Positions 19,188 to 49,646 of a stretch of DNA of 64,000 nt are shown here, in pieces; the stretch's first letter is position 1, and every line of letters starts with the position of its first letter. Made by a program: the position numbers and the translations under genes. Under the pieces are notes generated by a model that saw nothing but the letters and a program-made list of their open reading frames with translations, was not told the origin of the DNA and did no database searches. This DNA is from Marinobacter sp. es.042 (GTDB lineage: Bacteria > Pseudomonadota > Gammaproteobacteria > Pseudomonadales > Oleiphilaceae): assembly GCF_900188315.1 (NCBI RefSeq), contig NZ_LT897781.1, forward strand, positions 3,410,001-3,474,000, given 5' to 3'.

Positions 19188-20636
19188 ATGCTGATTATCC
19201 CGGCTGAAAACGCCATCAACTGGAAACGCCCGCCCTGGGTCACCCTGGGCCTGATCATGACCTGCCTGCTGGTTTTTCTGTTTTATCAGGGGGACGACAG
19301 CCGGAAACTCGAGCAGGCCGTTGAACAGTACCTGGCCGCCGACCTTCATGAGCTGGAGGCGCCGGCCTACGAGGATTACCTGCAACGACAAATCCAGTTC
19401 CATGGTGAAGAAGGCCGGGTATACGAACTACAGCAGTTTCAGCAACTCCGGGAAGAGAACGAAACCTTCTGGCTGGCCATCAACCTGATGATGGACCGGG
19501 AGTTCTATCAGTATCTGCTGCAGAACCGTGATGTGATCTGGGCGCCGGCAGAAAGGGCCCGTTGGCAGGAGCAGCGCACTGCGATAGAGCAGCAGTACAT
19601 CCAGAAGCTGAGTGCCAACCAGTTGGGCCTGGTTCCTGCCGATCTGTCACTGTATACCCTGATCACCTACCAGTTTCTGCACGGCGGCTGGGGCCATATC
19701 ATCGGTAACCTGATCTTCCTGTTCCTGCTGGGATTCACCGTTGAGAAAGCCCTGGGGCCGGGTCGGTACCTGATTGCCTATCTGGTTTGCGGTGCCTTGT
19801 CCGGCCTGATGTTTACCGCGGTTTCGGCGGGTAGCTATGTACCCCTGGTGGGTGCCTCGGGCTCGATCTCCGGCCTGATGGGCATGTACGTAGCCATCTA
19901 TGGCCTGCAGAAGATCCGTTTCTTCTACTTTCTCGGCGTTTACTTCAACTATTTCCGTGCTCCGGCTATTGCCCTGTTACCGGTTTGGGTGGGCAAGGAA
20001 ATCTACGATTACTGGTATGCTGGTGCCACCGGTATCGCCTACATGGCCCACGCTGGTGGTCTGATCGCAGGTGCCGGCCTGGTCTGGCTGCTTGGCAAAA
20101 GCTGGCTGCAGGTGCGAGAGGAATTTTTCGAGCCGGAAGAAGAAGAGCAGGATGCCCGGTTTACCACCGGTTACGCCCAGGCCATGGCCAGCCTGGGCCG
20201 GATGGAGTTCGATTTGGCCCGGCGGCAATTCGAGGCTCTTCGTGAGCACTATCCGGAACGCCATATTCTGCTGGAACACCTTTACCAGCTGGCCAAACTC
20301 CGCCCGGACTTGCCCGAATATCGTGATCGCGCCAAAGAACTGATGAACGATGCCCTCAGCCGGCGCCAGCCAGAGCAGATGATTTCGATCTGGCAGGAAT
20401 ACCTGGGCAAGGGGGAGAGCTATCAGCCACTAGCGGCAGAAGACCATAACCGGGTCCTTTTCACCAGCCTCAAGCAACATGATCTAAAGGCTGCAGAGAA
20501 AGCCTTCGAGCGGCTCAGAAGCACGGGCGATGACATGCTGACTACCGAGGCCTGTCGGTTGCTTGTGGAAGAGTTTGAAAAGCGCCAGATGGCACCGAAA
20601 GCCCGTCATTATCGTCAACTTCTTCAGGCCCGCTAG
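19188..20636 (+). CDS. Rhomboid family intramembrane serine protease with C-terminal TPR-like domain
   Basis: This 482-residue protein is a membrane protease. The catalytic Ser224 is in GASGSISG, and His288 is in YMAHAGGLIAG, forming the rhomboid dyad across six to seven helices. A 120-residue soluble insert follows the first helix (about 35-150, rich in Glu and Gln). A C-terminal cytoplasmic helical-repeat domain (about 320-482, for example GYAQAMASLGRMEFDLARR) resembles tetratricopeptide repeats and may bind a partner. The substrate is unknown. The convergent neighbour has a similar helical tail. Confidence 0.9.
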   Translation: MLIIPAENAINWKRPPWVTLGLIMTCLLVFLFYQGDDSRKLEQAVEQYLAADLHELEAPAYEDYLQRQIQFHGEEGRVYELQQFQQLREENETFWLAINLMMDREFYQYLLQNRDVIWAPAERARWQEQRTAIEQQYIQKLSANQLGLVPADLSLYTLITYQFLHGGWGHIIGNLIFLFLLGFTVEKALGPGRYLIAYLVCGALSGLMFTAVSAGSYVPLVGASGSISGLMGMYVAIYGLQKIRFFYFLGVYFNYFRAPAIALLPVWVGKEIYDYWYAGATGIAYMAHAGGLIAGAGLVWLLGKSWLQVREEFFEPEEEEQDARFTTGYAQAMASLGRMEFDLARRQFEALREHYPERHILLEHLYQLAKLRPDLPEYRDRAKELMNDALSRRQPEQMISIWQEYLGKGESYQPLAAEDHNRVLFTSLKQHDLKAAEKAFERLRSTGDDMLTTEACRLLVEEFEKRQMAPKARHYRQLLQAR

Positions 20637-20646
20637 CCTCGGGGCA

Positions 20647-20755
20647 GCAGGGTATGGGAGGGGCTTCCCAAAACACGCTGTGAATACGTCCCTGTACGCT
20701 CGGCTCCGCCATCCATGGCTCCGCACGGTTTTGGGAAGCCCCTCCCATACCCTGC
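20647..20755 (+). repeat. Dispersed palindromic element, copy 1
   Basis: Two perfect 28-nt inverted arms (20647-20674 and 20728-20755) enclose 53 nt. The first 28 of these (20675-20702, starting ACGCTGTGAATACGTCC) match copy 2 at 48877-48904 on the other strand at 27 of 28 positions. The rest contains a small hairpin GCCAT-CC-ATGGC (20708-20719). The element fills nearly the whole gap between the rhomboid stop (20636) and the next gene's stop (20757). It is probably a bidirectional transcription barrier or a REP/MITE-like element. Confidence 0.9.
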
Positions 20756-20756
20756 G

Positions 20757-22211
20757 TCAGTCCTGTACGGAAAACGTCGCTTTTGGCCCCTTCAGCGGCT
20801 CTTTATTCTGCGCCTGCTCAAGATAAACCTTAATCTGTTCATGCAGCGGATGATTCACGCACTTTTTCTGGATAAACGTCAGGAAGGCCGTCGCTTTTTC
20901 CCACTGGGACAAGCCGTTGGCCAGGGTCTGGGCGACCAGCAGGTAGGCCGGGGCCAACTGCTCGCTGTCCGGGAAGCGCTTGTGGAAATCCTGCAGTACC
21001 CGTAACGCCGGCTTGAATTGGCCCCGGTGGTACAGGGCCCGGGCGCAGCGCACGGACAGGTCCGGATCCTCCAGCTTGAAGCCGGGTTCTGCTTTCTGGA
21101 TCGTATTCAGCACATCGGCGATGCCTTCGCCGTCGTTGCGATCGGCCAGCCAGCCCAGAATGCGTGGGTGGTAGCGGTAGAGTTCGTCGGTGTCCTGGCG
21201 GGCCGTCAGTAGCTGGTACAACTGGCCGATTCTCAGGGCGTTGTCCCGATCGCGCTTCAGTGCTTCCTTCAACATGCTCTGCACGCGATCGTAGTTGCCG
21301 TCTTTCAGGTTCATGTCGATATCGGCATCGAAACGGGCACTTCGGTCACGCTGGTGGGTGTCCTGCCCAGAGGTTTCGTCCTGAATGTCCGAGGCAAAAC
21401 CCAGCTCTTCCTGGTACTGGAACAGCAGGTAGCCAAGCATGTGGAACAGAATCAGGGTGAAGGTACTGTTCAGGAAGCCGGCCAGGGGCTGGGCCACCCA
21501 GAACGGAAAGTGATTCACCGCAAAGTCCTGGGCCGCGCCCGAGGCGAGGGTCAGCAGGATCAGGTAGCCGTAGAGCAGGAAATAAGGGGTGCCAATTCGC
21601 GAGATCAGCACCGCCAGATTCATCGGATTCACCGCAGCACCCACAGAACGCTCCATGGCCAGAACCATGATGCTGGCCGGTAATGCCAGAATGACAAACG
21701 CCAGCGCCAGCAGCATCAGGATGGGGCCGCCGAGCATGGCAGCCGCGCCAACCAGCCCGCCCATCAGCACGAAGACCAGCAACTGCAGGATGACAATATC
21801 AAAGCCACTGCCGGTGAAGGCGACGGACACGGCGGGCGGTTTCAGGTGGCCTTCAGCGGTGTGGTTGATCACCGCATAGGTATACTTGAACAGGGCCAGG
21901 GCAAGCACCAGCCAGATCAGGATGCCAATCAGGTTGGCGGGGGCTACCACCGGCACCAGGGTGCAGATGGCGATAACGATCAGCGGATCGGTATGGAACG
22001 GGTAACGAAAGAACGCGCCGAGTCGCTGCCAGAAAGGGACCACTTCGGTGGCGGCGCCCAGGTATCGCATGGCCTTGCTGCAGTGGGGACACAGGGCCCG
22101 ACGCTGTCGGGTATCGGCATCGGGCATGCAGCGGCTGCAGTAGTGAATCTGGCACTCCCCACAGTGCCATTTGGCAGGGTCGCCGGGGTGATAGTGGCAA
22201 TCGTGTTTCAC
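20757..22211 (-). CDS. Membrane protein with N-terminal zinc finger and C-terminal TPR-like repeats
   Basis: This 484-residue protein is not one I can name. The N-terminus has a B-box-like or treble-clef zinc-binding cluster (C5, H8, C17, C20, C25, C28, C41, C44; for example WHCGECQIHYCSRC). Then come about six membrane helices (75-280), with a YIP1/DUF4013-like feel. A soluble helical-repeat domain follows (about 310-480, for example ALYHRGQFKPALRVLQDF). Zinc finger and TPR tail should both face the cytoplasm, suggesting a scaffold or regulator of membrane proteins. It converges with the rhomboid gene, which has a comparable tail. Confidence 0.75.
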   Translation of the reverse strand: MKHDCHYHPGDPAKWHCGECQIHYCSRCMPDADTRQRRALCPHCSKAMRYLGAATEVVPFWQRLGAFFRYPFHTDPLIVIAICTLVPVVAPANLIGILIWLVLALALFKYTYAVINHTAEGHLKPPAVSVAFTGSGFDIVILQLLVFVLMGGLVGAAAMLGGPILMLLALAFVILALPASIMVLAMERSVGAAVNPMNLAVLISRIGTPYFLLYGYLILLTLASGAAQDFAVNHFPFWVAQPLAGFLNSTFTLILFHMLGYLLFQYQEELGFASDIQDETSGQDTHQRDRSARFDADIDMNLKDGNYDRVQSMLKEALKRDRDNALRIGQLYQLLTARQDTDELYRYHPRILGWLADRNDGEGIADVLNTIQKAEPGFKLEDPDLSVRCARALYHRGQFKPALRVLQDFHKRFPDSEQLAPAYLLVAQTLANGLSQWEKATAFLTFIQKKCVNHPLHEQIKVYLEQAQNKEPLKGPKATFSVQD

Positions 22212-47520: not shown

Positions 47521-48792
47521 ATGCACATTGCTGTTGTTGGTGGCGGCGTGGTGGGAATGACCACCGCCTATGAACTGAATCGCCGGGGCCACCAGGTGAC
47601 TGTGCTGGAACGTCATTCAATGGCCGGCAACGAGACCAGCAAGGCCAACGCGGCCCAGCGATCCTATGGTGTGGTGTATCCCTGGGCCGATCCCGCGATT
47701 GTGTTCAAGGCCATCCCCTGGATCCTCAAGCAGGATGGCCCCCTGAAGCTTCGCTTCCCGCCGTCTGTGGAAACACTCAAGTTCATGTTCGCCACGCTCC
47801 GTTATGCCTGGTCGCCAGGGCTGTTCGGGTTTAATCGCCGCGCCATGTTGCGCCTCGGTATCCACAGCCGGGAACGATTTCTGGCGCTTGAGAAGGAGCT
47901 TGATCTGTCCTTCGATGGCGACCACCGAGGCCTGCTGCACCTGGCGAGCACACCGGAAGCGCTGGAAGGCTACCGAACGACCCATGAACTGCTGAAGGAA
48001 CTGGGCATCCCTTCCCGTTTGCTCACACCCGAACAGGTGCGCGACGCCGAGCCCGGCATGGTTGGCAATGGTCCGCTTTATGGCGCCCTGAGCTATGACA
48101 CCGACGGAACCGGCGATTGCCACAAATTTTCCCGGGAACTCGCTAAAGCCTGCGAGGCGAAAGGGATAGTGGTTCGTTACAACGTGGAAGCGGAAAAACT
48201 GATTGCCGATGACCAGAGGGTCAGCGCAATTTCAGTCAGAAACAGCGATGGAGTCATGGAAGCCCTGGAAGTGGATGCCGTAGTGATCAGCGCTGGCTGC
48301 TGGTCCAACCACCTGGTTCAGCCCCTCGGCCTGGAACTGCCCATCTATCCGGTAAAGGGGTACAGCCTGACGGTTCCTATGAAAGACCCTGAGCGAGGTC
48401 CGGCATCGACCATTCATGACGACAATTATAAAGTCGTTTCTACCCGTCTGGGGAACCGGCTACGGGCTACGGGTTTCGTCGAGCTGGCGGATTTCAACCG
48501 GGATATTCCCGAAGCCCGACTGGCAACTATCAAGAAGTCGGTCGAATCCCGGTTCCCCGGCTGCGCCGATCTCGATGCCGCCGAAACCTGGACCGGCTTT
48601 CGCCCCATGACCCCGGACGGCCCGGCGATTATCGGCCGCGGTCCCAGAGAAAATCTCTACCTCAACACAGGCCACGGTACATTCGGCTGGACTCTATCTG
48701 CCGGCAGTGCCGATGTCATCGCCCAGGTAATTGAAGGCGAGGAACCCGCCATCTGTCTGGATGCCTTCCGCCCAGCAAGATTCCAAGAGTAG
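47521..48792 (+). CDS. FAD-dependent D-amino acid dehydrogenase (DadA-like)
   Basis: The 423-residue flavoprotein has the dinucleotide-binding N-terminus HIAVVGGGVVGMTTAYEL, the DAO-family TWTGFRPMTPDGPAIIG, and a closing NTGHGTFGWTLS. DadA-type enzymes oxidise D-amino acids and pass electrons to quinones at the membrane. The alanine racemase usually paired with DadA is not adjacent. It starts 17 nt after the PPK2 gene with GAGGAG upstream, so they may be co-transcribed. The repeat element follows 44 nt after its stop. Confidence 0.88.
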   Translation: MHIAVVGGGVVGMTTAYELNRRGHQVTVLERHSMAGNETSKANAAQRSYGVVYPWADPAIVFKAIPWILKQDGPLKLRFPPSVETLKFMFATLRYAWSPGLFGFNRRAMLRLGIHSRERFLALEKELDLSFDGDHRGLLHLASTPEALEGYRTTHELLKELGIPSRLLTPEQVRDAEPGMVGNGPLYGALSYDTDGTGDCHKFSRELAKACEAKGIVVRYNVEAEKLIADDQRVSAISVRNSDGVMEALEVDAVVISAGCWSNHLVQPLGLELPIYPVKGYSLTVPMKDPERGPASTIHDDNYKVVSTRLGNRLRATGFVELADFNRDIPEARLATIKKSVESRFPGCADLDAAETWTGFRPMTPDGPAIIGRGPRENLYLNTGHGTFGWTLSAGSADVIAQVIEGEEPAICLDAFRPARFQE

Positions 48793-48836
48793 TTTCAACA
48801 ATTCGATGCGCGCAAAAAGCCCGAGAGCAGGACGGA

Positions 48837-48920
48837 TAGCCCCTCCCGGGATCGTCGAAAACATGGATGTTTTCGTCGAGCGTACATGGACGTATTCACA
48901 GCGTATCCCGGGAGGGGCTA
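48837..48920 (-). repeat. Dispersed palindromic element, copy 2
   Basis: Perfect 16-nt arms (48837-48852 and 48905-48920, containing CCCCTCCCGGG) enclose 52 nt. The core 48877-48904, read on the minus strand, matches copy 1 at 27 of 28 positions. The inner hairpin CGAAAACAT-GG-ATGTTTTCG (48856-48875) has nine pairs. The right arm runs into the TAG stop of the methyltransferase gene. Arms and hairpin differ from copy 1 in sequence but keep pairing. Confidence 0.9.
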
Positions 48921-49646
48921 ACCGTCTTGCTCCGCCTCGGAATCCGAGCGCGACTGAGATCTGCAATCCACAGCGCGCTCAATGTTCGAGCACAGCGTAT
49001 GAACAAATCCGATATCCCGATCAGACAGCAACGGCAACCGTTCGAAAACCCACTGGGACAGCTTTCCTTCAGGCGGTGTATCCAGTTCCGGTAGCATGGT
49101 TTCGAGCCGATTGCGGAGAGCCCCAAGACGGTTTTTATCGGCAGGCTCAGGCTCGTTATCCATAGCTTCCGAAAGCCCGGACATTTCCCAGGCATAGAGC
49201 ATTACGGACTGGGCGAGGTTCAGGGAGGGGTAGGTGACCTTCATGGGGATGCCGGTTAACAGATCGCAGAGAGCCAGCTCTTCATTGGACAGCCCGCGAT
49301 CTTCCCGGCCAAACACCAATGCTGCGGTTGCCACGGACGCACCCTTCGTGGCCAGAACCTTCCGCAGATCTGAGGGGCCGTGCCAATCCTGGCGCTGATG
49401 CCGGGTCTTGGCGGAGGTGCCCATCAGCAGGTCTACGGAGTTTCTTACCGCAGCCAGATCGGGGAAAATGCGCGCATTGTCCAGGATATGGTCGCTGCCA
49501 TGGGCCAGCCAGTGGGCTTCCGGGCGGGTGTGCAGATCGGAATTGACCAACCACAGTTCGCCGAAGCCCATGGTGCACAACGCACGGGCGGCTGCACCGA
49601 CGTTTTCCGGAACCTTGGGTTCAACAAGTACAAAGGCCAGTTGCAT
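48918..49646 (-). CDS. SPOUT-class RNA methyltransferase (LasT/TrmJ-like)
   Basis: The 242-residue protein opens with FVLVEPKVPENVGAAARA and carries the SPOUT knot motifs VFGREDRGLSNEELALCD and YPSLNLAQSVMLYAWE. Enzymes of this group methylate 2'-O-ribose in tRNA or rRNA. The match to E. coli LasT/YjtD seems closer than to TrmJ, from memory. GGAGGT lies seven bases before the start. Its ATG and the ATG of the divergent methyltransferase share the four bases CATG. Confidence 0.88.
   Translation of the reverse strand: MQLAFVLVEPKVPENVGAAARALCTMGFGELWLVNSDLHTRPEAHWLAHGSDHILDNARIFPDLAAVRNSVDLLMGTSAKTRHQRQDWHGPSDLRKVLATKGASVATAALVFGREDRGLSNEELALCDLLTGIPMKVTYPSLNLAQSVMLYAWEMSGLSEAMDNEPEPADKNRLGALRNRLETMLPELDTPPEGKLSQWVFERLPLLSDRDIGFVHTLCSNIERAVDCRSQSRSDSEAEQDG

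Follow-up and report, generated by a model that had tools for sequence, protein, structure and literature searches.

The stretch of Marinobacter sp. es.042 DNA analysed here (the window; 64,000 nucleotides, positions 3,410,001 to 3,474,000 of contig NZ_LT897781.1) contains two palindromes, copy 1 of 109 nt and copy 2 of 108 nt, each of which lies between convergent genes. Copy 1 is flanked by genes for a Rhomboid-domain protein and a TPR protein, and copy 2 by genes for an oxidoreductase and an RNA methylase, the latter of which is called TrmJ-like here (the domain search gave SpoU_methylase). The positions of these genes and of the parts of both copies are collected in Table 1, where the strand that carries GGA in its hairpin loops is called the GGA strand.

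Table 1. Palindrome copies, their parts and the neighbouring genes (window positions).
Feature	Position	Strand	Remarks
Copy 1, whole	20647..20755	-	- strand is the folding (GGA) strand; covariance-model hit at chromosome 3430659-3430743, - strand
Copy 1, outer arm, 28 bp, perfect	20647..20674		3' arm on the GGA strand; inverted-repeat search
Copy 1, outer arm, 28 bp, perfect	20728..20755		5' arm on the GGA strand; inverted-repeat search
Copy 1, hairpin A	20701..20727	-	CATGGATG at 20710-20717, - strand; by eye, motif counted across copies
Copy 1, hairpin B	20677..20699	-	CAGGGACG at 20687-20694, - strand; by eye, motif counted across copies
Copy 2, whole	48825..48932	+	+ strand is the GGA strand; covariance-model hit at chromosome 3458837-3458920, + strand
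Copy 2, 5' outer arm, 28 nt	48825..48852		93% complementary; one G-U and one A-A by eye
Copy 2, 3' outer arm, 28 nt	48905..48932		contains the stop and last codons of the TrmJ-like gene
Copy 2, hairpin A	48853..48878	+	CATGGATG at 48862-48869; by eye
Copy 2, hairpin B	48880..48902	+	CATGGACG at 48885-48892; by eye
Rhomboid-domain protein gene	19188..20636	+	PF01694; 10 nt separate the gene end from copy 1
TPR protein gene, convergent	20757..22211	-	PF14559; read-through would yield the GGA strand of copy 1
FAD-dependent (DAO) oxidoreductase gene	47521..48792	+	PF01266; read-through would yield the GGA strand of copy 2
SpoU/TrmJ-like RNA methylase gene, convergent	48918..49646	-	PF00588 (SpoU_methylase); overlaps the copy 2 arm

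A preliminary description of this DNA had reported two dispersed palindromes, and both were found where it had placed them. The extent given for copy 1 was correct, but copy 2 is larger than the proposed 48837-48920. The 28-nt cores, which lie on opposite strands, differ by eye at a single base, in agreement with the reported identity of 27/28. The inner hairpins differ in sequence between the two copies with pairing intact in both, again as reported. The arms of copy 1 form a perfect 28-bp repeat; those of copy 2, described as 16-nt perfect repeats, are 28 nt long and 93% complementary.

When the es.042 genome was searched with the core pattern, allowing up to three mismatches, 21 matches were obtained compared to none for the reversed control, which speaks against a chance resemblance. 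A covariance model was built from 20 of these. The genome-wide search with such a model had been set beforehand as the test of the proposed element; it gave at least 80 copies (E ≤ 6.2e-5) of an element of about 109 nt with arms that are still complementary, and three further, doubtful matches (E 0.28-4.4). As the best 150 of 1499 first-look candidates were scored, the copy counts are lower bounds. Matches occurred in 15 of the 19 genomes of the relatives set (es.042 included), and within the genus the copies per genome ranged from 3 to 145, again as lower bounds. Of the 370 gammaproteobacterial genomes in a class-wide draw, 77 carried the element, as did 67 of the 273 genera; here the best 12 candidates per genome were scored, and the counts are likewise lower bounds. 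The matches listed in named contigs include Marinobacter, Methylomicrobium, Halopseudomonas, Stenotrophomonas, Microbulbifer, Ectothiorhodospira, Thiosymbion and Rheinheimera, among others. On plasmids and phages no element was detected at E 1e-5; a core-only query matched two plasmid records (E 0.1 and 0.4) and one phage (two records, E 0.5), none of them covering 80% of the query. Carriage by plasmids or phages was hence rejected. A search of the open-access literature, subscription papers being outside its scope, gave no description of this element. It may be noted that 19 of the 80 es.042 copies are crowded at chromosome 430000-570000, which is 3.6% of the chromosome. Separately, a Saccharophagus-labelled contig (L084:3118-3739) holds four same-strand tandem copies in steps of about 180 nt, an array and not a dispersed set.

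Further comparisons were made with an other-taxon set and an ortholog set. The former came from 131 matches, with 100 of 120 loci searched; 11 incomplete or weak matches and four without flank were omitted, leaving 116. The latter used 19 of 23 matches, two duplicates of es.042 copies and two nested variants being omitted. Tests on flanks, stem extension, target-site duplication and U-tracts omitted very short or long extensions and kept 75-77 of the 80 es.042 copies and 108-109 of the 116 others.

The element has a common plan, in which a stem of about 28 bp is closed by a three-way junction bearing two small hairpins, A and B. The stem of hairpin A is variable, and hairpin B is conserved and has a five-base bulge. 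The outer arm sequence is individual to each listed copy. Among the first 20 copies, nearly all stem pairs are Watson-Crick, the outer half of the stem is highly variable in sequence, and the pair adjacent to the junction covaries, being C-G in 10 copies and T-A in the other 10. The alignment of 131 matches (129 distinct rows) was made to fit the model and is hence biased towards structure; 94.2% of its 3242 cells are paired, and two-sided changes are seen in 24 of the 26 pairs. Covariation was 0.694, compared with 0.167 for shuffled alignments and at most 0.124 for slid ones. None of 500 shuffles matched the real alignment on any of five measures, and the slid versions were lower on every measure. 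Inspection by eye had suggested a further outer helix formed by the flanks; this was not supported, as the pairing energies equalled those of swapped controls (z 0.33 for 75 es.042 copies and -0.17 for 108 others). Two nested variants, L247 (1316-1379 region) and L258 (3039-3140 region), have additional hairpins within an insert in hairpin A; one of these inserts bears another CANGGANG, and a similar insert was seen by eye in es.042 copy 3725459.

The fate of individual copies was followed at the two loci of the window. Among the best 30 of 61 rhomboid-gene loci, the element is present in 13 (11 strong matches and two nested variants) and, by the model, absent from 17. For the copy 2 locus the corresponding figures are 8 and 14 of 22. 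In L241, the nearest relative (98.5% protein identity), the arms are identical to those of copy 1. In L242 (97.5%) the arms are again those of copy 1 except for two double changes, both matched, and the core is inverted. The slot is empty in L243 (96%), and L244 retains only apparent arm remnants. A second pair of loci, L256 and L268, have their arms in common except for two double changes, with the cores in opposite orientation. In ten comparisons with L240 at the copy 1 locus, changes affected both arms at 100 pairs and a single arm at three, transversions included; these comparisons are mutually non-independent, and the distant loci among them may be separate insertions. One-arm changes are commoner at the copy 2 locus, where L270 differs from L271 at one two-sided and seven one-sided pairs, from L272 at four and one, and from L274 at five and three. 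The arms thus drift largely as pairs, the core flips, and copies come and go. In L251 and L253, from other Marinobacter genomes, the slot after the rhomboid gene is occupied by tandem copies of another palindrome (GGGGTCAGATGAAAG...CTTTCATCTGACCCC).

The preliminary description had taken the compensatory changes in the arms and the inner hairpin as the sign of a selected folded form. Arm complementarity alone is not decisive for this, since correction of a palindrome by template switching could also produce complementary arms, and the paired drift may perhaps come in part from such correction. A REP- or MITE-like palindrome, selfish or neutral, would then account for the element: its arms would be held complementary by template-switch correction of quasi-palindromes and not by selection, and its GGA hairpins would serve as signals to an enzyme that mobilises the element as single-stranded DNA. 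The joint change of the two arms, transversions included, favours this explanation, and the wide range of copy numbers within one genus, together with the losses and arm remnants at one locus, also speaks for it.

What argues against it is an asymmetry between the strands. Neutral decay or palindrome correction alone would be expected to leave wobbles that are symmetric. In the 20-copy alignment, the displayed strand has A-C mismatches and no G-T at all. With symmetric scoring of 215 copies, the GGA strand showed 131 G-U against 24 A-C wobbles outside the modelled stem, and 85 against 26 inside the modelled pairs. Counted per copy (modelled pairs included), G-U exceeded A-C in 45 of 46 informative es.042 copies and in 70 of 82 others. 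The bias was present in all four gene arrangements, on both genome strands and in both halves of the chromosome, with its midpoint used as the dividing point in place of the origin. In 68 of the 80 copies, moreover, the fold of the GGA strand is better than that of its complement. The asymmetry, which follows the strand of the core in every gene context, points to selection on the folded form of the GGA strand; the fold of one strand thus looks selected. Hence, the selected folded form of the preliminary description is well supported, but through the wobble asymmetry and the GGA loops and not through the compensatory arms from which it had been argued. Which strand folds (the minus strand of the window for copy 1, the plus strand for copy 2) had been missed.

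The GGA strand has CANGGANG in both of its hairpins in 77 of the 80 es.042 copies, 87 of the 116 other-taxon copies and all 19 orthologous copies, and the N positions of this motif vary among copies. The remaining three es.042 copies have a single motif; in the remaining 29 copies from other taxa one of the two motifs departs from CANGGANG, with GGA retained by eye in 28 of them. The starts of the two motifs are 22-25 nt apart in the 183 copies that have both. The Rsm/CsrA site has been published as A/U-CANGGANG-U/A (PMC4353343), and the rules given for CsrA comprise the SELEX sequence RUACARGGAUGU, an ANGGAN hexaloop and a dimer that bridges sites 10-63 nt apart (PMC7652899). The features of a CsrA/RsmA site are thus present in the element, namely the CANGGANG/ANGGAN loop on a stem and a spacing within the published range. 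The exact SELEX 12-mer is rare, with two occurrences in es.042 copies and 11 among the 116 others. Lowest-energy folding leaves GGA free of pairing in 73 of the 77 hairpins A, but only in 45 of the 77 hairpins B.

The gene for CsrA was found in all 19 genomes of the relatives set. In the class-wide draw it was present in 75 of the 76 element-bearing genomes besides es.042, compared to 324 of 370 across the draw. With es.042 counted, the comparison is 76 of 77 element genomes against 248 of 293 others (Fisher p 3e-4, treating two draws of 370 as identical genomes). The one element genome that gave no csrA match, G241, is a draft in about 270 contigs. As csrA is common in the class, its presence is weak as support for a CsrA reading, and small reduced genomes confound the comparison.

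Neither in the window nor in nine loci did any Rfam family attain its cut-off; the miRNA families that appeared below cut-off were taken as long-hairpin noise and rejected. Two other entries below cut-off are of interest. TwoAYGGAY (RF01731) is listed for human gut, gammaproteobacteria and Clostridiales (PMC2864571), and has already been proposed to bind CsrA (PMC4333381). Its model, which was built independently of these data, gave 28 hits over the es.042 genome at E ≤ 10, and all 28 fell on the element and on its GGA strand, the element copies making up 0.09% of the two-strand genome. No es.042 copy reached the gathering score of 43 bits, the best having 41.4; copy 1 scored 22.2 bits and copy 2 was not among the 28 hits. 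The copies of the window, being below the cut-off, were therefore not filed as TwoAYGGAY members. Elsewhere, four copies in three of 67 element-bearing genomes were above the cut-off. With stricter filters, hits at E ≤ 0.001 were obtained in 15 of the 67, es.042 not among them. Of 30 loci with a TwoAYGGAY hit, 29 carry the element on the same strand by our model, L296 being the exception. The element shares with TwoAYGGAY a long outer stem that encloses, on one strand, two hairpins with GGA loops. Its loop, ANGGAN, may differ from AYGGAY, as a purine often occupies the first N (47 of 77 es.042 hairpins A and 19 of 77 hairpins B). The element is also a dispersed, invertible, multi-copy palindrome, which is not part of the description of TwoAYGGAY in the two articles cited. 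The element family would work in the manner of the TwoAYGGAY RNAs and is probably related to them.

Ysr224 (RF02770, Yersinia sRNA 224) also resembles the element, as its consensus holds the core and hairpin A in the same order, although on the opposite (TCC) strand, which is not the one favoured by our data. The scores (22-28 bits) are far from its gathering score of 70, and its model stops before the 3' outer arm. With sRNAs of the CsrB/RsmZ type the element shares several GGA hairpins that match the CsrA site, and it would be decoy-like if expressed. Unlike these sRNAs, it has two sites per copy and many copies, and no promoter motif was found with the one matrix used.

The preliminary description had placed the element between convergent genes. 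This is so for both copies of the window, but only for 27 of the 77 es.042 copies that could be classified by crude codon-score gene calls (three of the 80 were left unclassified); 20 and 19 copies lie in the two orientations between tandem genes and 11 between divergent genes. The element is thus not specific to convergent genes. Its even orientation relative to tandem genes (20 versus 19) favours the selfish or neutral palindrome. No same-strand gene lies upstream of 30 of the 77 copies, and the wobble bias is kept in these (21 G-U to 2 A-C, modelled pairs included). When the 80 copies were scanned upstream for a -10-like motif, using one simple matrix typed from recall, no enrichment over the control was observed. 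The GGA strand would therefore have to come from read-through or from undetected promoters.

Many copies are situated 13-60 nt downstream of stop codons. YPAL palindromes of Yersinia are miniature palindromes placed just past stop codons and transcribed into 3' ends, and by this description the element is like them in lying near stop codons. Such a position, along with very stable stems (predicted folding energies of -72.3 and -69.8 kcal/mol for copies 1 and 2), is what one would expect of an mRNA 3'-end hairpin, the long stem of which would block exonucleases or read-through, with the loops as mere caps. An element of this kind would require neither GGA loops at a fixed spacing nor a preference for one strand. 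A U-tract after the stem was found in none of 77 es.042 copies on the GGA strand and in two on the other strand; for other taxa the numbers were one and two of 109. An intrinsic terminator was rejected on this ground, and a 3'-end hairpin appears distinctly improbable.

Filing of the element among known repeats was also considered. A REP is a palindrome of 20-40 nt, common to the copies, with a GTAG or CGTC end tag, and CGTC REPs are reported to be without a dedicated Y1 (RAYT) transposase (PMC3733652). Like the GTAG and CGTC families of REPs and REPINs as described there, the element is a dispersed extragenic palindrome near gene ends and has inverted dimers. Among doublets less than 300 nt apart, all ten have the same order, with the GGA strands pointing outward, which adds to the case for a selfish palindrome. 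Unlike REPs, the element is about 109 nt long, its arms are copy-specific, and Y1 transposases do not track its copies: the Y1_Tnp count is zero in G001, G005, G008 and G009, which have 56-95 copies, 22 in G004, which has 7, and one in es.042. Filing as REP or REPIN was rejected for these reasons. Filing as a MITE was rejected because the arms differ among copies and target-site duplications of at least 4 were not above control, occurring in 3 of 77 es.042 copies (control mean 2.9) and 5 of 109 others (control 6.0). The missing link of Y1 counts to copy number and the lack of excess target-site duplication also count against a selfish or neutral palindrome, as does the stem length, which has its mode at 28 bp (21 of 80 copies in es.042; 21 of 116, with a broader spread, in other taxa). 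Together with the wobble asymmetry, they make this explanation unlikely. In four of the ten doublet spacers (chromosome 442394-442618, 520021-520213, 529172-529312 and 699697-699822) another palindrome was seen, with TAGGTCGG- or TAGATCGG-type ends, which by eye resembles GTAG REP.

The reading that we prefer is that of a dispersed, invertible RNA element related to TwoAYGGAY, which would bind CsrA when it is read through and whose approximately 80 copies would act as a decoy. To this, as judged from sequence, we give a probability of roughly one half. Transcription of the GGA strand would for the most part be read-through out of an adjacent gene. The resulting RNA would then fold into the stem of about 28 bp, the three-way junction and the two hairpins, each exposing an ANGGAN loop, with motif starts 22-25 nt apart, and both loops of one copy would be bound by a CsrA/RsmA dimer. 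A single copy may anchor CsrA at the 3' end of its transcript, and the copies together may form a dispersed decoy that lowers free CsrA. The arms would be free to drift since what counts is that they pair, not which bases do so; this drift may be assisted by template switching between the arms, which may also invert the core. The mechanism with the best support is CsrA binding together with a decoy role, as predicted from the motif, the fold and the family resemblance. The main weakness of the RNA reading lies in the copies with no same-strand gene upstream, for which frequent inversion, if fast enough, may be the answer.

A folded RNA that binds some other GGA-loop protein, or that belongs to an unknown mobile system, would explain features beyond a CsrA site, i.e. 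the conserved junction, the five-base bulge of hairpin B and the covarying pair next to the junction. The lack of a csrA match in one of the 76 element genomes (the draft G241) would, if real, point the same way. The loop pattern equals the known CsrA/Rsm consensus, with the N positions free, and we regard this alternative as very improbable.

The decoy could be taken further. Nearly 160 CsrA-type sites are present on the 80 es.042 copies by motif count. Mobile, self-inverting palindromes might constitute a genome-wide CsrA sponge in roughly one in five gammaproteobacterial species (77 of the 370 drawn), with inversion of the core toggling copies relative to neighbouring transcripts; we regard this as a tentative idea, somewhat doubtful. 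If true, the total of read-through at the ends of genes would set free CsrA, which would be a global read-out of a new kind. If the preferred reading of a CsrA-binding RNA is right, this repeat, carried by 77 of the 370 gammaproteobacterial genomes sampled, would be a load on the global regulator CsrA and not junk, and the Rfam entries TwoAYGGAY and Ysr224 would be joined as one family with a stated strand. The element also offers a natural test of how arms are matched in long palindromes, by selection on RNA or by template switching.

Lastly, the stop codon of the TrmJ-like gene is located inside an arm of the element in the window (48918-48932), and inside its core in the relatives L272, L274, L279 and L285. 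The element therefore shapes the C-terminus of the TrmJ-like protein.
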